Shown here piece by piece: positions 8,607-20,706 of a stretch of 21,389 bases of DNA. Both the position numbers and the translations under genes were made by a program. This DNA comes from a virus. The notes under the pieces are model-generated. The model was not told where the DNA came from, made no database searches, and saw nothing but the letters and a program-made list of their open reading frames with translations. Where the stretch lies: IMG/VR virus record IMGVR_UViG_3300010354_000818, positions 1-21,389 of that record; one strand, written 5' to 3'. Every line of letters starts with the position of its first letter. The stretch's first letter is position 1.

Positions 8607-11573
8607 TTATAAACCTGCTGCAATATCACCTCTGTTCTTGATACGTAATGGAATATAGATAAACTCGACTGCTTTTACAGGTTCTATAGCAATATCTACA
8701 TACAATTCGTTGCGATCAATTCTAGCAGGTGTATTATTTGTTTCGTCACATACGACAATAAAGTCATATAAAGCACGTTGACCTACTAATTCTAACATTA
8801 GACTTTCTACACTTGCTTTAATTTCTCTACGTGTTTGTGCATCATTTGGCTCAAATAAGAATGGTCTAGATAAAATATCTAACTGACGTCTTAGATAGGC
8901 CACTAATCTAGCAACATTTACTCTATCCAATGCGCTGGCATTTGATGCTCTTGTTCTTTGTCCGTAGGCAACAATTCCAACTCCTGTAAGATTTGTAATT
9001 GGATTGATCGCAACATTAGTATTAGGATCTAACATGACGTCTCTAATGCTTTGAGGAACTACAGTGCTCCTAAACTCATTCTCTGAGTCAATGTAACCAA
9101 TACTAGTTGCATTATCGATTACTGCTCTTCTAGTTCCTGCCGGAGCGAACCATAAGTAAGACTTAGCATCATTATTAATATAAGTTCTTAACATCATATG
9201 GCTAGGTGGAACTACAATTGCGTTACCTGAATTGTCTGTTGTTCTTCCGCTAGGATAGTAAAGAGCCATGTACTCGTTATAGGTTACAGCACCTTTTTCA
9301 CCGTTATCTGTTGCTAAATTACTGTTTAATCCGTAGTTTGATATACTTGTTGCGTTGGGTAATAATCTAAATGGAGTATCACCTATAACAAAAGATGTTA
9401 ATCCTCTATCAACATTTAAACCAACCATGTTACTGATCAATTCCGGATAGCCTGGTGCTACAATTAGATTAAAATTAACAGAATCTGTATCTCTCAATGC
9501 AAGACTTGTATCTACCATGCTCTTCATTTCTTTGACAACTACTTGTCGTTGAGATTTTCTACCGAATACACCAGCTCCTGTATCATCAATTGGATACTGG
9601 CTTACCCATCTATCTGGGTTATATCCTGTCATTGATTCGCCGAAATATCTATCATTTGTATCTGTAAGATCAATATATCCTTTAACAAACTTCTTAACAT
9701 TAAATCCTGATCTTCTTGTATTCCATAATTTTATTCCACGTGGGTATAATCTAGGATCCGGTGCATCAGGATCCACATAATTAGATGATAATAATGAAGT
9801 AATTGATGCTGCTTCTGTATCTGCGCCTAATAATCCCCAGCGAGCGTCCGCAAACACCCAGCCATCTGGACTGGTTTGATCTGTGGTATCTTGTAATACC
9901 CACTTGCTACCGCTAGTAATAGTGCTATCATATACATAGATATTTGAGCCGTATAATTCTAGATCGCTTGTGTCGATCCAAATATCACCAGTTACCAAAT
10001 TGCCACCGTCGCTCCTGTCACCGTTAACTGGTTCAGTTGCTTGAATTAGCGGACCTCCTGGATCACTCAACGGAAAGAAATTCAAATAACTTACCCATGT
10101 TGTACCTGAATTAACTAAAATGTCAACTTCGTCAATAACATTATTGTACCAGAATGTTCCATCTGCAGGATCTGTATATGGTGCTGTTCTGCTTGCTTCA
10201 TATACAAGAGGTTTCCATGCGCTAATTATATTTGTTGATGTATCTTCTGTAAAGAAGTTGCTGTTTCCATCTTGGTTAACTACTGAATAAGGAGTTAGGT
10301 TTAATAACGTTCTTGTAGCAGTAGTCATGCCTGTTATCTTAATTTCTCCGCCCTGTCGATGAGAAATAGTTAGTATCTGTGTACTATTGTTGAATAATAC
10401 TTCAACGTTTTGAAGATTACTTTGTGCTAGTACAGCATTCGCAAATAACTGTCCTAAGTAAGTAGTTGTGTTAGTAGCAGTCATTCCAATTGGGAAAGAG
10501 CTACCAAATGCCTCAGTACCTGCTGTTGTTTCTGCTATAGAGAAGCTATAAGTAGTACCGCTTGTTGCGTAACTAGTTGCCGCATCAGCAACACATAAAG
10601 TTGGACCTTTATTTGTTCTTCTTCTGATTTCAAAATTTGCTAACAAAGGAACTTGAGAATTTCTAATATTCCAATCGATGTATAATGAACCGGCTGGAAT
10701 ATTTAAACCTCCGCCTGCGGCATCCTCATTATATGTAGCACTTTCTCTAGTTGAATAGAGGGGAGCATCAACTTGATCCCAAGTTTTTGTAGTTCCGTTA
10801 TAATACTTAATTGCCCAGTTCGCACCATTTGTTATAGGGGTAGATGTAATCCAAACGCTACCAGTAGCAGTACTTGCATCGTAGATAGGATAATCATAGT
10901 GTGGACTAATTTGTAATCTTGTTGTAGAATCATTAGTTACTTGTACCCAACTATTTGATGAATTTCTATAATACAACGCATTTTGATTATCGTTTGTTAC
11001 TACCATAGCATAGTCACCTGGTGTACCAAATCCAGGTGCAGGAACAAGACCTGTTAAAAATGTTGAACCTGTGTTGTCATCTAAAACAAGAGGAGTTTTT
11101 GTTGTAAATTTTCTTGTTACACTACTCCATTCCTTAACGCCAAATTGGCTATTTGCTGTATCTACCCAGTATGTTCCTGCTACAGGTTCTCCCTTAGGGA
11201 CACTAGAATCAGGCAAAAGTTGATTTAAATCAATATCTGCCCTAACAACATACGCTCTAGAACTTACGCCCAGACTACTATATGCTGCCTGTAGTCCGTA
11301 TTCATTCAATTCATTTCCATGTTGAGGATTACCACTTGAATCTGTATAGAACAATGGGGTGCCAAATGTGTCGGTTAAGTCTCTTTGGCTAGTTACAAGA
11401 TAAATCTTGCCTGCGTTTGCTGCTAATGTTCCAGCGGCAGTAGAACCGCTAGGATTTGTTTTATCCTCTGCAGATACTACAATTACTAAAGGTGTGGTGC
11501 CAGAAGCAGCAGGTGTATAAAAACTTTCATCTATTACTGTAACTGATACACCTGGTGAAATTAATGTTGCCAT
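8607..11573 (-). CDS. 18: Tail sheath protein with a large repeat-containing insertion, 988 aa
   Basis: Gp18 forms the contractile outer sheath. The N-terminal domain (1-~125) has LISPGVSVTVIDES and the DTFGTPLFYTD / NEYGLQAAYSSLG segments typical of T4-like sheaths. The C-terminal part (~590-988) carries the conserved core, including VAPGYPELISNMV, RLVAYLRRQLDILSRPFLFE and the last ELYVDIAIEPVKAVEFIYIP strand used in subunit interlocking. Between them, about 465 residues form an insertion rich in Ser, Thr, Trp and Tyr with recurring units such as GTYWVDT, GDYAMVV, GSVWITS, GTFWYNN and GDIWIDT, each followed by a W-containing strand. Total length is well above T4 gp18 (659). By analogy with T4, insertions sit on the sheath exterior, so surface decoration is inferred. 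A near-late promoter lies 31 bases upstream and the ribosome site is GAGGAG. Confidence 0.96.
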   Translation of the reverse strand: MATLISPGVSVTVIDESFYTPAASGTTPLVIVVSAEDKTNPSGSTAAGTLAANAGKIYLVTSQRDLTDTFGTPLFYTDSSGNPQHGNELNEYGLQAAYSSLGVSSRAYVVRADIDLNQLLPDSSVPKGEPVAGTYWVDTANSQFGVKEWSSVTRKFTTKTPLVLDDNTGSTFLTGLVPAPGFGTPGDYAMVVTNDNQNALYYRNSSNSWVQVTNDSTTRLQISPHYDYPIYDASTATGSVWITSTPITNGANWAIKYYNGTTKTWDQVDAPLYSTRESATYNEDAAGGGLNIPAGSLYIDWNIRNSQVPLLANFEIRRRTNKGPTLCVADAATSYATSGTTYSFSIAETTAGTEAFGSSFPIGMTATNTTTYLGQLFANAVLAQSNLQNVEVLFNNSTQILTISHRQGGEIKITGMTTATRTLLNLTPYSVVNQDGNSNFFTEDTSTNIISAWKPLVYEASRTAPYTDPADGTFWYNNVIDEVDILVNSGTTWVSYLNFFPLSDPGGPLIQATEPVNGDRSDGGNLVTGDIWIDTSDLELYGSNIYVYDSTITSGSKWVLQDTTDQTSPDGWVFADARWGLLGADTEAASITSLLSSNYVDPDAPDPRLYPRGIKLWNTRRSGFNVKKFVKGYIDLTDTNDRYFGESMTGYNPDRWVSQYPIDDTGAGVFGRKSQRQVVVKEMKSMVDTSLALRDTDSVNFNLIVAPGYPELISNMVGLNVDRGLTSFVIGDTPFRLLPNATSISNYGLNSNLATDNGEKGAVTYNEYMALYYPSGRTTDNSGNAIVVPPSHMMLRTYINNDAKSYLWFAPAGTRRAVIDNATSIGYIDSENEFRSTVVPQSIRDVMLDPNTNVAINPITNLTGVGIVAYGQRTRASNASALDRVNVARLVAYLRRQLDILSRPFLFEPNDAQTRREIKASVESLMLELVGQRALYDFIVVCDETNNTPARIDRNELYVDIAIEPVKAVEFIYIPLRIKNRGDIAAGL

Positions 11574-13477: not shown

Positions 13478-14665
13478 ATGCCACGCTTATCTCTCTATCG
13501 TCCAGAAAAAGGCAAAGATTTTAGGTTTATAGATCGTGCGATCAATGAACAGTTCCAAATTGGAGGAACTGATGTTTATATTCACAAGTATCTAGGACCG
13601 GTAAGTCCAGAAGAAGGTGAAAGTTCTCCTGCGCAGCCCAATCAAACTAATGAAATTCCGGAGTTAGGAATCCAAGATCTATTATTTTTAGAAAATAGAG
13701 ATAGACACTATAGCGAAGATGTCTATGTAATTAGAGGAATTTATACTCTTCAAGATATAGATTTTAATCTTAGTCAATTTGGATTATTTTTACAAAATGA
13801 TAACATTATGGTAACTTTTCATCTGCGTTCAAGTTTTGATGCTTTAGGAAGGAAAATTGTAGCAGGAGATGTTTTAGAACTGCCACATCAAAAGGACGAG
13901 TATGCTTTAGATGATAGCCTTGTAGCTTTAAAAAGATTTTATGTAGTATCAGAAGTTACAAGACCTGCTAGCGGATATAGTCAAACATGGTACCCTCATT
14001 TAATTAGAGCAAAGTGTCAACCATTAGTTGATAATCAACAATTTAAAGAAATTTTTGATAAGGACTCTGGAGCTGAAGACGGATCTACCCTGCGAGATCT
14101 CTTGTCTGAATATCAAAAATCAATTGATATCAATAACCAAGTGATATTACAAGCAGAAGAAGATGTGCCTAAAAGCGGTTATGAAACAAAGCATCTTTTT
14201 GTTATTCCTACAGAGGACACAACGGGATTTGTTGATATCAAAGATGCTAGTGAAACAATTAATATAACAGAAGATACATTTGATGCGTCTGCTGTTTTGA
14301 GCACTCCTACAAAAAATTTCTATGTAGGTTATTTAACTGGAGACGGTATACCCCCAAATGGTGCTCCTTACGGATTTGGTATTACGTTTCCTTCTAATCC
14401 AGTAGCAGGAGAATTCTTCCTTAGAACAGATTATCTACCTAACAGAATGTATAGATATGACGGTTCACATTGGATTAAATTTGAAGATAATGTAAGGATG
14501 ACCACGAGTATGTTAGGAAATACTCAAACTAATGATCCTGCTTTAATAAGACAAAAATTAAAAGCAAGTTTTGTTAATAATATCAATACACAAACTATAG
14601 CAGGTGAAGTTATTCAAGAAAAACAAGCCTTGAGTAAGGCATTAAAACCTAAGGCAGATATATAA
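13478..14665 (+). CDS. 14: Neck protein gp14 with C-terminal extension, 395 aa
   Basis: The protein matches my memory of cyanophage-type gp14: MPRLSLYRPEKG, IGGTDVYIHKYLGPV, LENRDRHYSEDVYVIRGIY, FNLSQFGLFLQNDNIMVTFH, GRKIVAGDVLELPH and SQTWYPHLIRAKCQPL. These cover about residues 1-190, and the 'FSNFGMQVQDEVTLSIN ... GDLIYFP' counterparts are recognisable in T4 gp14. T4 gp14 has 256 residues; here the C-terminal half is extended. About 302-337 hold a small module, FPSNPVAGEFF then MYRYDGSHWIKF, that also occurs in fibre proteins of this window. The tail is basic and helical. It heads a plus-strand operon with gp15 (TAATG overlap at 14663-14667). Role: neck, with gp13. Confidence 0.88.
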   Translation: MPRLSLYRPEKGKDFRFIDRAINEQFQIGGTDVYIHKYLGPVSPEEGESSPAQPNQTNEIPELGIQDLLFLENRDRHYSEDVYVIRGIYTLQDIDFNLSQFGLFLQNDNIMVTFHLRSSFDALGRKIVAGDVLELPHQKDEYALDDSLVALKRFYVVSEVTRPASGYSQTWYPHLIRAKCQPLVDNQQFKEIFDKDSGAEDGSTLRDLLSEYQKSIDINNQVILQAEEDVPKSGYETKHLFVIPTEDTTGFVDIKDASETINITEDTFDASAVLSTPTKNFYVGYLTGDGIPPNGAPYGFGITFPSNPVAGEFFLRTDYLPNRMYRYDGSHWIKFEDNVRMTTSMLGNTQTNDPALIRQKLKASFVNNINTQTIAGEVIQEKQALSKALKPKADI

Positions 14666-16068
14666 TGGATTATTTTTACGACGGGCAGGTTAGAAAATAT
14701 CTTGCCCAATTTATTAATTTATTCAGCAATTTTGCCTACAAGGATGCAAAAGGTAATTTAATAACTATTCCTGTAAGATACGGCGATATGAGTCGCCAAG
14801 TCGCACAAATTTTAAGAAAAAATAGTGAAAATTCTGTCCCTTCGGCCCCGTTTATTGCTTGTTATATAAAAGATTTACAATACGACAGAAATCGTCTTCA
14901 AGATCCAACTTTTGTAAGTAAAATTAATATTAGAGAAAGAGATTTTAGTACAGCTACTAATTCATATTTGAACAATCAAGGATCTAATTATACAGTAGAA
15001 AGAATAATGCCAAGTCCTTGGATTTTAAGTTTATCCACAGATATTTGGACTACAAGCATGGATCAAAAATTACAAATCTGGGAACAGATTGTTGTATTTT
15101 TTAACCCCAGTTTTGAAATTCAAACTACTGATAATTATATTGATTGGACAAGTTTAAGTTCAGTAACTTTAGAAAATCAAACATTTACAACAAGAACTAT
15201 TCCTCAAGGACTTGACGATAATATAGATGTCCTGACATTAAATTTTACTGCTCCAGTCTGGATAACTCCTCCTGCAAAGGTTAGAAAACTAGGAATAGTT
15301 ACAAAAATAATAAGCAATGTTTTTGCTAATACAGCAGAAGGAACTATTCAAACTTCTTACAGAATAGATGGAGCAAGCGGATTATTTGATCAAATAAGTC
15401 CAGATGAAGAAATAGTTGTAACATCAGGTAATTTCAGTCTATTGGTAATCAATGGTATAGCACGTATTATAAATTTAACTGCTCTAGGAGACAGTATAGA
15501 TGTAGAAGATCCAAGAAATTCTACATCATGGTTAAAGCTATTAGATTTATATCCAGGAAAATTTAGAGCCGGATTAAGTCAGTTAAGGTTTAGACAAGAA
15601 AGCGGATCAGAAATTGTTGCTACTATAAGTTTAAATCCAAATAATGATAACGAGATGATTTTAAATATTGATCCAGATACTATACCCTCTAATACAATTT
15701 TATCTGGAAGAGGGTCAGTTGATGCCATTGTAAACCCTGTAACATATAGTCCAAGTTCCCTGTCAGCGGGAACAAGATATTTAATATTAGAAGGAATTAA
15801 CAATAACGATCAGTTTGGAACGATAGGATATCAAGGACCTGTTTCATGGAGAAACGCTGATAACAGCGATTTTAGAGCCAACCCCAATGATATTATAGAA
15901 TGGAACGGAAGTTCATGGTCGGTAATTTTTAATTCCCAAGGTGCAGGTGGCACAGTAATTTTTACTACAAATTCGTACACAGGTATTCAATATCAATTTA
16001 GTCAAGGCGATTGGACGAAAAGTTATGATGGAATATATGATAGGCAGTTATGGAGACTAATTCTTTAG
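14665..16068 (+). CDS. 15: Tail sheath stabiliser and completion protein gp15, extended, 467 aa
   Basis: Gp15 caps the sheath and joins the tail to the neck. The N-terminus DYFYDGQVRKYLAQFINLFS parallels T4 gp15 'YFYNSSFRRYATLMGDLFS', followed by ITIPVRYGD (T4 'IRVPITYAS'), a SENSVPSAPFIACYIKDLQY strand, then PSPWILSLSTDIWTTSMDQ and a QIVVFFNPSFEIQ segment typical of marine homologues. T4 gp15 is 272 residues; this one has some 200 more. The extension (~240-467) is beta-rich and ends with a module reading NDIIEWNGSSWSVIF (~405-420) and two Trp-containing strands. Its start overlaps the gp14 stop by one base, and its end overlaps the Nudix gene by 19 bases, so the three are co-transcribed and probably translationally coupled. 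Confidence 0.86.
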   Translation: MDYFYDGQVRKYLAQFINLFSNFAYKDAKGNLITIPVRYGDMSRQVAQILRKNSENSVPSAPFIACYIKDLQYDRNRLQDPTFVSKINIRERDFSTATNSYLNNQGSNYTVERIMPSPWILSLSTDIWTTSMDQKLQIWEQIVVFFNPSFEIQTTDNYIDWTSLSSVTLENQTFTTRTIPQGLDDNIDVLTLNFTAPVWITPPAKVRKLGIVTKIISNVFANTAEGTIQTSYRIDGASGLFDQISPDEEIVVTSGNFSLLVINGIARIINLTALGDSIDVEDPRNSTSWLKLLDLYPGKFRAGLSQLRFRQESGSEIVATISLNPNNDNEMILNIDPDTIPSNTILSGRGSVDAIVNPVTYSPSSLSAGTRYLILEGINNNDQFGTIGYQGPVSWRNADNSDFRANPNDIIEWNGSSWSVIFNSQGAGGTVIFTTNSYTGIQYQFSQGDWTKSYDGIYDRQLWRLIL

Positions 16069-16490
16069 ACAAAATTATTTGTAGTGGCGGTATTATTTTA
16101 TCAGCTAAAACGAAAAAGTTTTTATTGTTATTAAGAAGAAATGGTAAGACAGCAGGTACATGGGGCTTTGTCGGCGGTAAGAAAGAACCAGTTGATCAAA
16201 CTTCATTAGATATTTTATTGAGAGAAATAGAAGAAGAACTAGGTATTTCTCCTTCTATTCAAAAAATTATTCCTTTAGAATTGTTTGTAAGTCAGGATCA
16301 GAAATTTCAATATAATACCTATGTTGTAATTGTTGACAAAGAATTTATACCTGTTTTAAATAATGAACACACTGCCTATGCTTGGTGTTCTTATCAATCT
16401 TGGCCTAAACCACTACATAAAAGAATTAGTCAGAGTTTTAGTAATAAAATTATTAGGGCTAAATTAGAAATTTTGTTAGAATTAATCTAA
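16050..16490 (+). CDS. Nudix hydrolase, 146 aa
   Basis: Nudix proteins hydrolyse nucleoside diphosphates linked to another group. The Nudix box is at residues 43-66, reading GKKEPVD...LLREIEEELGI. Against the GX5EX7REUXEEXGU pattern it has Asp in place of the first Glu and one extra residue in the middle, while the REIEEELGI metal-binding helix is intact. Upstream strands (CSGGIILSAK, FLLLLRR, TWGFVGG) fit the family. The substrate cannot be told; T4 NudE acts on ADP-ribose, Ap3A and FADH, but similarity here is only at fold level. The gene overlaps gp15 by 19 bases with no clear Shine-Dalgarno, so it is likely coupled to late expression. Its stop overlaps the convergent glycosyltransferase stop by nine bases. 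Confidence 0.9.
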   Translation: METNSLDKIICSGGIILSAKTKKFLLLLRRNGKTAGTWGFVGGKKEPVDQTSLDILLREIEEELGISPSIQKIIPLELFVSQDQKFQYNTYVVIVDKEFIPVLNNEHTAYAWCSYQSWPKPLHKRISQSFSNKIIRAKLEILLELI

Positions 16491-17990: not shown

Positions 17991-19007
17991 TTATTTAGAT
18001 ACTGCGGTTCTAATAATTTTAATTGTTTTAGGAACAGCATCTATTGAAATAAAATATAAATTAACCGATGTATCAGTGCCAACGTTGGTCATAAGCGTAT
18101 CATAACTTCCTAAATCTATTGTAGAAAATACATTAGCATATTCTACTAAAGAACTTGTACCAGTGTTAAATGCCACTGTTAGGAGTTCAGATGTTTGGCT
18201 TCTATGGGTGCTAGATGTTCCTTCGTCAATTTGAATGATATATTTGGCAGACCTATATTGGCTAAACCAATAACTATCAATTATTGTGGCAGAAGTTGTG
18301 CTTACTGTTTTAATAGATGATGTGATATTTCCATAAATTAAATTATAACCTTGGGCACTCACGTTGTTAGATACCCCGACACCACCAGAGACAATCAGTG
18401 CTCCACTAGTTGTTCCTGTTGATGCTGTTGTGTTGGTTAAATTGATTTGTCTATTAGTTGTTGATCCACGTAGAGTAACACTTTGAAGGGTAGAAATGTT
18501 ATTAAATTCTAAAATGCCTCCTCCTACATCTACCACGTCGATATCAGTTCCATCCGCTGGTGTGTTATTAAAACTTGCTGTAGTTAGAACAGGAGCACCT
18601 TGGCTGAACAAAGTACCACCTATGTATAAATTACCTCCTATACCTACGCCTCCTACAATCTGTAACGCCCCTGTATTTGTGCTGTTTGATTGAGTAGCCC
18701 CTGTAACAAAACTTGTAATAAAACTTCCGGTTGCTAAAGATAGTTGCCCGCCGGTATTAACTATATTTCCACCAACATATAAATTGCCTGCCACAGCGGC
18801 TCCACCTGCCACAGTTAACGCACCACCGTTAGACACACTTACTGCGTTAGTTGTGGTTGATACTGTCAGAGATAGAACAGTTGTACTATTAAATGTTGCA
18901 AGTTTTGATAAAATTATCCAAGCAGATCCATTCCATTGATAAGTTGTCGAGCCTATCGTATGTGTTTGACCTATTGACGGATTTGATGGAAAATTAAACA
19001 TTGACAT
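17991..19007 (-). CDS. Tail-fibre-type structural protein with GG repeats, 338 aa
   Basis: The N-terminus FNFPSNPSIGQTHTIGSTTY-then-QWNGSAWIIL is a small beta module found at the start of many marine T4-like fibres. The middle has three copies of a repeat of the form GALxVxGGxxVxGNLYVGG (GALTVAGGAAVAGNLYVGG, GALQIVGGVGIGGNLYIGG, GALIVSGGVGVSNNV). The C-terminal ~110 residues, from TVSTTSATIIDSYWFSQYRSAKYIIQ on, form a distinct domain resembling tip domains shared among cyanophage fibres; this is from memory. No enzymatic motif is seen. The likely role is a trimeric adhesin or fibre subunit. Two close Met codons exist (MSM); the first gives the listed start. No good Shine-Dalgarno is seen; it follows the 561-residue gene by 13 bases. 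Confidence 0.83.
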   Translation of the reverse strand: MSMFNFPSNPSIGQTHTIGSTTYQWNGSAWIILSKLATFNSTTVLSLTVSTTTNAVSVSNGGALTVAGGAAVAGNLYVGGNIVNTGGQLSLATGSFITSFVTGATQSNSTNTGALQIVGGVGIGGNLYIGGTLFSQGAPVLTTASFNNTPADGTDIDVVDVGGGILEFNNISTLQSVTLRGSTTNRQINLTNTTASTGTTSGALIVSGGVGVSNNVSAQGYNLIYGNITSSIKTVSTTSATIIDSYWFSQYRSAKYIIQIDEGTSSTHRSQTSELLTVAFNTGTSSLVEYANVFSTIDLGSYDTLMTNVGTDTSVNLYFISIDAVPKTIKIIRTAVSK

Positions 19008-19020
19008 TTTTATATCTCAT

Positions 19021-20706
19021 TTAAAATTGTAAAGTCTGTAACCAAAATGAACTGGTTCCATCTTTAATGTATTGGAAATACGAATTAGTTTGACTGTTGA
19101 TCCACACATCTCCTATTCTAGGGCTACTAGGTGCTGTACCAGTATTAACTGTAATAACTGGAGTGTATAATTCGTAGTCTTCATCAGGAGCGCCCCCGGA
19201 CTGACTGTAAACTTTGCCGGTAACTCCTAACCCTCCTAGTACAACCAATGCTCCTGAATTTGTGCCTGTACTATCAGTTCCTAGACCTAATCTTACATCA
19301 CCGTTTATATCAGTATTTCCGGCACCGTCATAATAGATTAAACTACCTATATTGATCTGATTATTTTTTAAGTCAACAAGATTGTCAGCACCAATTGCTA
19401 TAATACCACTAGCACTTGTTAAATTATTAAATTGATTATGACCTATAATAGTATTGTTTGATCCAGTGGTTAAATTAACAGCAATATTATTACCAAAGAA
19501 GAAATTGTCTGAGCCATTTACTAGATTAGGAGCAGCATTTATACCTATAGCTATATTGTCGTCGTTGGTTACATATCTATAAATTGTGCCACTAGACGAA
19601 TAAGATCCGTATGTTGAAGCATTAATAGGAATTAATAAAGTAGAATTACCAAACAGTGCCAATGTCGAGCTGTTAATCCAGTCAACATAGTAGACATTTT
19701 GATTTAATTGAGTAGTTCCTACCACTCCGTCGATATAAATTGCTGTTCCTGTTCCTATATCATGAGTAGGTGAAGTTACTAATGCTGGGCTTGTTACAAC
19801 ACCGCCACTAGTATATGAATTTAATGAGTAAACTACGGTACCTACTGTAGCTGTTAAACCGTTTGAAGGTACCGTTAAATTTTTGTTTGTGTATAAAGCC
19901 AGAGTATTAGTTGTTAGTACATCAACCCAATATTTTGTGTTATTTAAAACACTTGTTGAAGTTGTAGCAGTACTAAGCCCTGTAACTCCTGTAATTAATA
20001 TTTGGCTTCCAGTTGTTAATTGATGGTTGTTGGCGGTTACAACAATAGGACTAGCATTTGTGGCTGCAGAAATTGTACTGCTACTAATTCTTGTAACATT
20101 GGTAATAGTTGATAAAATAGGAAAATTATTTGTACCCATTAAGGTTAAAGCACTATCACCTATAGCAATTGTATTACTGATATTAGATCCCGAACTGAGT
20201 GATTTTCTACCAATAGCAATTACTTTATTAGTAGAAGATAATCCAGTTAAAGTATCATAACCTATGGCTATACTATTTTGTCCGGTTTCAAATCCTGAAG
20301 ATGTTGAAGCAGTTCCTCTAAAAACAATATTATTAACACCTTCAAAACCTTTACCTAAAGTTAAGCCATTTACAACAATATCTTTAGCAATATTCATATT
20401 GCCGCCAACACCAATACCCCCAGTGACTACAAGTGTTCCTGATGCTGTAGAAGTAGAAAGATAGCTAGTTCCTGTGGCTAAAACTCTTATTGTTCCTTCT
20501 GGAAGAAGGCTGTACATACTTGCTGTATAGATATGAACAAATCCAAGACTACTTCTGTATGTTGTGCGTAATGCACTATCAGTGGCAACAGTAAAACCAG
20601 TAGCGGTTGTTTCAGTAGGAGGTAGCTGTGGTTGTGCTCCAGGGAGATCGATAAACTCCCCGCTTGTTCCTCTTCTAAGTGTTGATCCACTAAGTAATCG
20701 TGCCAT
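19021..20706 (-). CDS. Repeat-rich tail-fibre or adhesin protein, 561 aa
   Basis: Several repeat types are visible. NxxAIG-type repeats (IAIGYDTLTGL, VIAIGRKSL, TIAIGDSAL at ~145-195, and NIAIGINAAPNL, NTIIGHNQF, IIAIGADNL at ~384-440) resemble the left-handed beta-roll repeats of trimeric adhesin heads. Two copies of a unit resembling the E1-FCCH-type domain of phage fibres (~215-285 and ~305-375) share 'V(T)...H.(L/I).TG..I.I.GV.G....LN...Y.V......LAL'. GG repeats (SGTLVVTGGIGVGGNMN and SGALVVLGGLGVTGKVY) match those of the next gene. The C-terminus PRIGDVWINSQ...FWLQTLQF is the aromatic module also found in gp18. The likely role is host attachment, by inference. Followed at 13 bases by the 338-residue gene; weak ribosome site. 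Confidence 0.83.
   Translation of the reverse strand: MARLLSGSTLRRGTSGEFIDLPGAQPQLPPTETTATGFTVATDSALRTTYRSSLGFVHIYTASMYSLLPEGTIRVLATGTSYLSTSTASGTLVVTGGIGVGGNMNIAKDIVVNGLTLGKGFEGVNNIVFRGTASTSSGFETGQNSIAIGYDTLTGLSSTNKVIAIGRKSLSSGSNISNTIAIGDSALTLMGTNNFPILSTITNVTRISSSTISAATNASPIVVTANNHQLTTGSQILITGVTGLSTATTSTSVLNNTKYWVDVLTTNTLALYTNKNLTVPSNGLTATVGTVVYSLNSYTSGGVVTSPALVTSPTHDIGTGTAIYIDGVVGTTQLNQNVYYVDWINSSTLALFGNSTLLIPINASTYGSYSSSGTIYRYVTNDDNIAIGINAAPNLVNGSDNFFFGNNIAVNLTTGSNNTIIGHNQFNNLTSASGIIAIGADNLVDLKNNQINIGSLIYYDGAGNTDINGDVRLGLGTDSTGTNSGALVVLGGLGVTGKVYSQSGGAPDEDYELYTPVITVNTGTAPSSPRIGDVWINSQTNSYFQYIKDGTSSFWLQTLQF

Follow-up and report, generated by a model that had tools for sequence, protein, structure and literature searches.

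What kind of tail sheath protein is encoded by the 988-residue open reading frame P0001, which lies at positions 8607−11573 on the minus strand of the window (the whole virus record of 21,389 bases analysed here, free of end repeats and probably a fragment), and what are the makeup and role of the long region in the middle of its sequence? Profile comparison matches P0001 almost end to end with the "tail sheath" family phrog_10581 (E 8e-212, 707 bits; query residues 1−982, profile positions 1−913 of 915), and Phage_sheath_1C (PF17482), matched in 26 of 26 family members, scores 61 bits against a cut-off of 26.9 at residues 880−978. The PF04984 subtilisin-like domain gave no sequence match within the window and is matched in 2 of the 26 members (best E 0.0037), and a PDB sequence search returned no structure of P0001 or a close relative, its matches being confined to the C-terminal core. 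In an AlphaFold model of P0001 derived from a 93-sequence alignment (mean pLDDT 87.2), the core has its best solved matches among T4-type sheaths, superimposing on chain 9f4a_SA by VIA-align (Z 25.7, rmsd 5.5, 335 aligned residues, model range 22−967), and other contractile sheaths also match it, including T4 3j2m_U (Z 22.2) and the T4 gp18M crystal chain 3foa_C (Z 18.4, rmsd 2.7, 202 residues). P0001 is the sheath protein of a contractile tail, from a lineage of jumbo phages related to PA5oct/Paride, RaK2/121Q, Atu_ph07/Phosso and SCTP-2, and tube self-assembly is reported for one relative's sheath, RaK2 041 (PMC8618960). Residues 1−124 share 56−90% identity with relatives whose rows have complete N-termini, structural alignments of P0001 to sheaths begin at residues 19−26, and the fold match shows that the N- and C-terminal parts fold jointly into the standard sheath core:

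8607..11573, minus strand: tail sheath protein (gp18-type), P0001; phrog_10581 profile match and sheath core fold
11214..11573, minus strand: sheath core, N-terminal part (residues 1−120); relatives' identity, dN/dS and structural alignments
8607..9803, minus strand: sheath core, C-terminal part (residues 591−988); Phage_sheath_1C at 880−978

The sequence-only reading had described the middle as built of W-containing repeats and had named five motifs, all of which are present, at five sites between residues 133 and 535: GTYWVDT (133−139), GDYAMVV (186−192), GSVWITS (238−244), GTFWYNN (472−478) and GDIWIDT (529−535). The corresponding units (U1 to U5) and the remaining features of the middle are:

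11082..11207, minus strand: W-unit U1 (GTYWVDT), residues 123−164; profile match to U4, strands 135−138, 146−150, 155−159
10932..11048, minus strand: unit U2 (GDYAMVV ... W209), residues 176−214; strands 188−191, 198−203, 209−211
10761..10910, minus strand: W-unit U3 (GSVWITS), residues 222−271; profile match to U5, strands 240−243, 255−259, 264−268
10614..10709, minus strand: possible sixth unit, residues 289−320; weak self-comparison to U5
10212..10607, minus strand: flagellin-D2/FliD-like alpha/beta domain (IN), residues 323−454; VIA-align and relatives' extra-domain profile
10074..10196, minus strand: W-unit U4 (GTFWYNN), residues 460−500; profile match to U1, strands 474−477, 485−488, 493−495
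9882..10043, minus strand: W-unit U5 (GDIWIDT), residues 511−564; profile match to U3, strands 531−534, 545−548, 558−560

Chance occurrence of the motifs is ruled out by a motif-blind self-comparison, in which 48-column windows of the family alignment were compared pairwise (2850 non-overlapping pairs): P values below 1e-3 were reached by 42 of 975 insert−insert and insert−N pairs (35/630 and 7/345, respectively) versus 0 of 1875 others (C−insert 0/1203, C−C 0/378, C−N 0/279, N−N 0/15), the listed insert−N pairs being windows that extend into U1. Profiles of hand-set units, compared in 15 pairs, are most similar between U1 and U4 (P 2.3e-6) and between U3 and U5 (P 1.2e-5), with weaker similarity for U1−U3 (1.1e-3), U1−U5 (1.7e-3) and U4−U5 (2.3e-3) and only 0.02 for U3−U4. 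Self-comparison also finds a resemblance to U5 at residues ~289−322 (P 1.4e-4 to 2.9e-4), in a stretch that the sequence-only reading had not named. U2 was not significantly similar to any other unit profile (P 0.076−0.58, with relatives' extra-domain columns included in the U2 profile) and, when self-comparison was run on the window's own columns, was aligned in none of the 30 best pairs listed. In the whole-protein model the five units share one strand order, each having three short strands, and in residues 118−592 folded alone (78 sequences; mean pLDDT 91.3, pTM 0.77) the first U4 strand is unassigned. Judged by sequence comparison, U1, U3, U4 and U5 are true internal repeats, and U2 would group with them solely through its predicted strands. 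Repeated small beta subdomains are thus borne out by the unit profiles, the self-comparison and both models, and since they exist, the opposite outcome, an extended T4-like sheath domain with no repeated subdomains, was not seen; the description of the whole middle as W-containing repeats holds for U1, U3, U4 and U5 but not for the profile-dissimilar U2 or for residues 323−454, which are alpha/beta.

Conservation was read from alignment A2, which joins 92 of 101 non-redundant proteins to that of the window and omits L027, L046, L060, L064, L072, L077, L079, L094 and L119, several of them among the longest; alignment A3 keeps 78 of its 93 rows. Most residues of the motifs are near-fixed: W209 and W532 in 93/93 proteins, W136, W149, Y188 and W475 in 92/93 each, W493 in 90/93, W241 in 84/93, W558 in 83/93 and W265 in 82/93, W253 being less conserved (only 59/93). 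Because glycine and tryptophan are near-fixed in three-stranded units, the tryptophans probably make up each W-unit's own core.

The alpha/beta domain IN, which spans residues 206−337 of the separately folded 118−592 model, aligns by VIA-align with flagellin FliC (4nx9, Z 6.5), with FliD (5h5t, Z 6.1) and with two phage chains, residues 93−186 of 8kee_C from the sheath of cyanophage A-1(L) (Z 6.3) and residues 88−210 of E217 chain 8env_A, which we take to be the E217 sheath protein (Z 5.8); Z values of 5.8−6.5 are modest and can be reached by unrelated folds. Sequence gives independent support: an additional domain, located between U2 and U3 in relatives, matches IN by profile (P 9.8e-8), and in the relative L071 this extra domain has a hit, at 271−310, above the Pfam Flagellin_IN cut-off (24.1 versus 22.7 bits). 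Flagellin_IN appears at E ≤ 1 in 4 of the 26 family members, and a Pfam search of P0001 gave no Flagellin_IN match. As regards an Ig-like beta-sandwich, Foldseek with the insert listed 50 rows, mostly antibody chains (probability 0.09−0.23, TM ≤ 0.26), together with one FliD row at probability 0.96, and a PDB structure search with the whole insert left the W-units unmatched among the matches listed.

We propose, with a probability of roughly 0.68, that the middle of P0001 is a modular and mainly structural outer arm on the sheath protein of a jumbo phage. The middle (~residues 125−590) would exit the core and re-enter it as an arm, whose order, shown by sequence and model, is U1, U2, U3, flagellin-D2-like domain, U4 and U5 and which, by homology with T4, would face outward. 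The sequence-only reading had expected discrete outward beta domains: small beta units are indeed predicted, but their outward side comes only from homology with T4 and with the sheaths analysed by Evseev et al., in which added domains are located away from the tube (PMC9230969). Such an arm would enlarge the sheath, pack against neighbouring subunits or rings and provide a tolerant surface, carried along as the core contracts but with no share in contraction itself; as a single-chain model cannot show subunit contacts, this structural role is one that we infer. Weak adhesion or the docking of whiskers or fibres could be added roles of the arm.

The proposed modularity is visible in the spacing between U2 and U3, which is 6−18 residues in 34 of the 93 proteins, the window protein among them, and 99−144 residues in the other 59, with none intermediate, so that P0001 belongs to those without a second flagellin-like domain at this position; the core parts keep stable lengths across the alignment (N 123−127, C 387−415). 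On a quick core-only tree of the 93 rows, the presence or absence of the second domain needs at least five changes, compared with a mean of 27.8 for shuffled labels. This tree is a recount without eight named phages, with which an earlier tree of 101 rows had given seven changes; the label of Paride is doubtful there because its domain at 269−392 matches the IN rather than the extra-domain profile. By these alignments and trees, the second flagellin-like domain is a module gained or lost several times while core length was kept.

The size of P0001, which the sequence-only reading had set against the 659 residues of T4 gp18, proves ordinary in its family. Complete relatives (126 of 126) measure 957−1290 residues and fall into two classes, 957−1037 and 1078−1290, in a survey of loci (the best 80 of 107 from one search, the best 80 of 590 from another) from which open-ended ORFs and ORFs below 850 residues were excluded, and published sheaths reach 1283 residues (PMC9230969). 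Sheaths of eight cultured relatives have 879−1091 residues and three T4-type sheaths 634−671. A merged W profile, run on 12 proteins with hits counted at iE ≤ 1e-5, matches four times each in Atu_ph07 and Phosso, three times each in SCTP-2, Paride and Vibrio phage 2.275, once each in Munch and 121Q, and not at all in RaK2 (best 5.5e-5). RaK2 and 121Q gave no convincing match to the flagellin-like profiles. For Atu_ph07 and Phosso, the match to the extra-domain profile lies before U3 and the gap between the U3 and U4 hits is only ~60 residues, which places their flagellin-like sequence before U3 instead. As far as these profiles go, the arm map fits the window's own clade and fits more poorly elsewhere.

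Selection was compared across regions in 32 pairs above 80% identity, which are not independent and from which saturated regions were set aside (30−32 pairs per median). Median dN/dS is 0.070 for the N-terminal part, 0.156 for U1 and U2 together, 0.239 for U3, 0.231 for IN, 0.080 for U4, 0.158 for U5 and 0.094 for the C-terminal part; every computable region and pair stays at or below 0.50, with no diversifying selection at region-level resolution in the 32 pairs. By these estimates the middle is faster-evolving than the core, yet under purifying selection, and the rise of dN/dS from the core to the centre of the arm, followed by a fall, is as expected of a loop-out whose middle is distal. These values bear directly on the notion that the arm is near-neutral baggage of a large genome, in which outer domains come and go with little counter-selection. 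Such drift would accord with the repeated gain or loss of one domain and with the supposition, quoted in PMC9230969, that the additional domains of T4 are non-essential for sheath formation, but purifying selection acts on every module measured (median dN/dS 0.08−0.24) and the motif residues are nearly fixed, which argues that each module is maintained and makes this account highly improbable.

The same data weigh on the suggestion that the sheath is decorated for glycan binding or stickiness, which finds no support here: searches of P0001 and its relatives with carbohydrate-binding-module and lectin profiles gave none above cut-off, and median dN/dS lies between 0.07 and 0.24. The sole carbohydrate-related Pfam family listed at E ≤ 1, H_lectin, gives a hit in 1 of 26 members (L028, E 0.07, 13.7 bits versus a cut-off of 24), and U5, searched on its own against PDB sequences, reached no better than E 0.72, so that these searches leave a carbohydrate-binding identity unsupported. 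A broader version has the whole tail aid adsorption through weak binding of cell-surface or environmental glycans, by the W-units or by the flagellin-like domain. It draws on the argument that beta modules rich in aromatic residues, if exposed on each subunit of the sheath, would be suited to low-affinity binding, on the faster evolution of U3 and IN and on the adhesion that Evseev et al. suggest for extra sheath domains alongside stabilisation (PMC9230969). We nevertheless consider it unlikely, given that the sub-threshold H_lectin stands alone among 26 members, that computed dN/dS never exceeds 0.50 and that the tryptophans, near-fixed in 93 proteins, look more like the core of a fold than like host-specific sites.

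A further rival reading starts from the hair-like fibres seen on the tail or head of the jumbo phages CBB, phAPEC6, 121Q and Atu_ph07, and from the long tail fibres of A-1(L), which run along a groove of the sheath; both would suit an arm on which tail whiskers, or tail fibres when folded back, can dock. The hairs of phAPEC6, a phage described as structurally like 121Q, are however found at only three annular positions on a 25-ring sheath (PMC7247149), meaning that they are not one per sheath subunit, and the authors of the CBB study were unable to assign whisker genes; we regard docking as improbable.

Outside sheath proteins the separate unit profiles found nothing convincing (best E 0.24). 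The merged W profile scores at least 5 bits in 24 of 2349 non-sheath ORFs versus 3−4 in each of five shuffles, and 7 bits in 8 ORFs versus 0−1, the weak scores falling in neck, gp15-type, fibre and some other ORFs. As many of the scoring ORFs are mutually homologous and all have E > 0.1, they amount to no more than a lead, and it seems quite unlikely that the W-unit is a lineage-wide virion building block, used in the sheath, in the sheath stabiliser of gp15 type, in a neck protein and in the fibres. If it were, head-neck, tail surface and fibres would share one beta module, interlocking or binding a common ligand, and the tail would be a lattice of repeated contact sites. For the outer sheath arm itself, the present domain map describes the outer portion of a sheath family that is large, widespread and inclusive of phages with unexplained hairy tails. 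Close relatives differ naturally in whether one flagellin-like domain is present, which offers ready comparisons for the function of outer sheath domains.

How far does this architecture depart from known sheaths? The contrast with T4, first described as a ~465-residue insertion absent from that phage, is overstated, because domains I and II of T4 gp18 (residues 88−345) occupy the equivalent place, face solution and consist of a beta-barrel with a helix and of a beta-sandwich (PMC3004832); by our guess at the boundaries, the net excess of P0001 over T4 in the middle is about 200 residues. T4-type gp18 proteins (T4, KP1 variant Lilla1, RB16 and S-WAM2) share the core fold with P0001, at Z 22.2 for T4 to 25.7 for the KP1 variant, and as in P0001 their outer domains interrupt a split core. 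Unlike P0001, the T4-type sheaths of RB16, S-WAM2 and D527 yield no merged W profile match up to E 1, an absence that may reflect divergence, the profile having been derived from the family of P0001 itself. In the type 3 sheaths modelled by Evseev et al. 2022, found in large phages, the core carries at least three domains, as in RaK2 (888 residues, 4 domains), Atu_ph07 (1086, 5 or more) and SCTP-2 (955, 4) (PMC9230969). P0001 is alike in its multi-unit middle, with the tube-distal position following from homology only, and in phage 812, as quoted in PMC9230969, such an extra domain is reported to contact a neighbouring subunit, probably stabilising the disk. The main text of that article does not contain "tryptophan" and mentions flagellin only as an analogy for the split core and in references, and open-access PMC literature showed, among the matches listed, no other description of W-units or of a sheath Flagellin_IN domain. 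To flagellin D2 and the FliD cap, P0001 shows a resemblance confined to one domain, with no sign of a flagellar role. The cultured phages whose sheaths resemble P0001 along its full length (PA5oct/Paride, RaK2, 121Q, Munch, Atu_ph07, Phosso and SCTP-2) have the same core, the Paride sheath being 37% identical to P0001 across 99% of the protein, and the eight cultured relatives share a U1-like unit with it, weakest in RaK2; the flagellin-like domain follows U3 in P0001 but precedes it in Atu_ph07 and Phosso, with seemingly none after. Large multi-domain sheaths, those of cultured relatives of P0001 included, are thus already published, and P0001 is a detailed new example to which the W-repeat, the flagellin-D2-like domain and the gain and loss of that domain are added here.

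A pattern resembling the W-unit, the small repeated beta unit with W motifs found in the probably outward-facing arm of the sheath protein (a G, then a strand, then y.dG..W), is seen by eye and by computed alignment as short stretches in four other open reading frames of the window.

W-unit-like stretches outside the sheath gene, as aligned by eye and by computation
13478-14665, + strand: head-neck type virion protein, stretch at the C-terminus
14665-16068, + strand: gp15-type sheath stabiliser, stretch at the C-terminus
17991-19007, - strand: fibre-like ORF, stretch at the N-terminus
19021-20706, - strand: fibre-like ORF, stretch at the C-terminus

The merged W profile, built from the W-units of the sheath family, gives weak scores to members of the head-neck type and gp15-type families, as well as to the fibre-like ORF at 19021-20706. 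The latter also carries two sub-threshold matches, one to the ubiquitin-activating enzyme FCCH domain in Pfam (E = 7.7e-5; 23.1 bits against a cut-off of 29.5) and one, close to its C-terminus, to DUF7360 (E = 0.0068). As the T4-gp15 Pfam domain covers only residues 3-228 of the 467-residue gp15-type protein, the latter extends beyond it by about 240 residues at the C-terminal end. The ORF at 16050-16490 (+) contains a stretch that, judged by eye, looks Nudix-box-like.

Among the sheath relatives, the proteins of loci L028 and L064 (1278 and 1289 residues) are two of the longest, with 292 and 327 surplus residues, respectively, in the region corresponding to residues 125-590, and with two matches and one match to the profile of the extra, flagellin-like domain. 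At locus L063 (4953-8453), the sheath gene is split over separate ORFs of 428 and 644 residues with an overlapping 190-residue ORF between them, which may be due to a frameshift, to an element that interrupts the gene or to faulty assembly. In Pseudomonas phage Paride (locus L161, 8742-10358), a gene annotated as a homing endonuclease lies between the sheath and tube genes.
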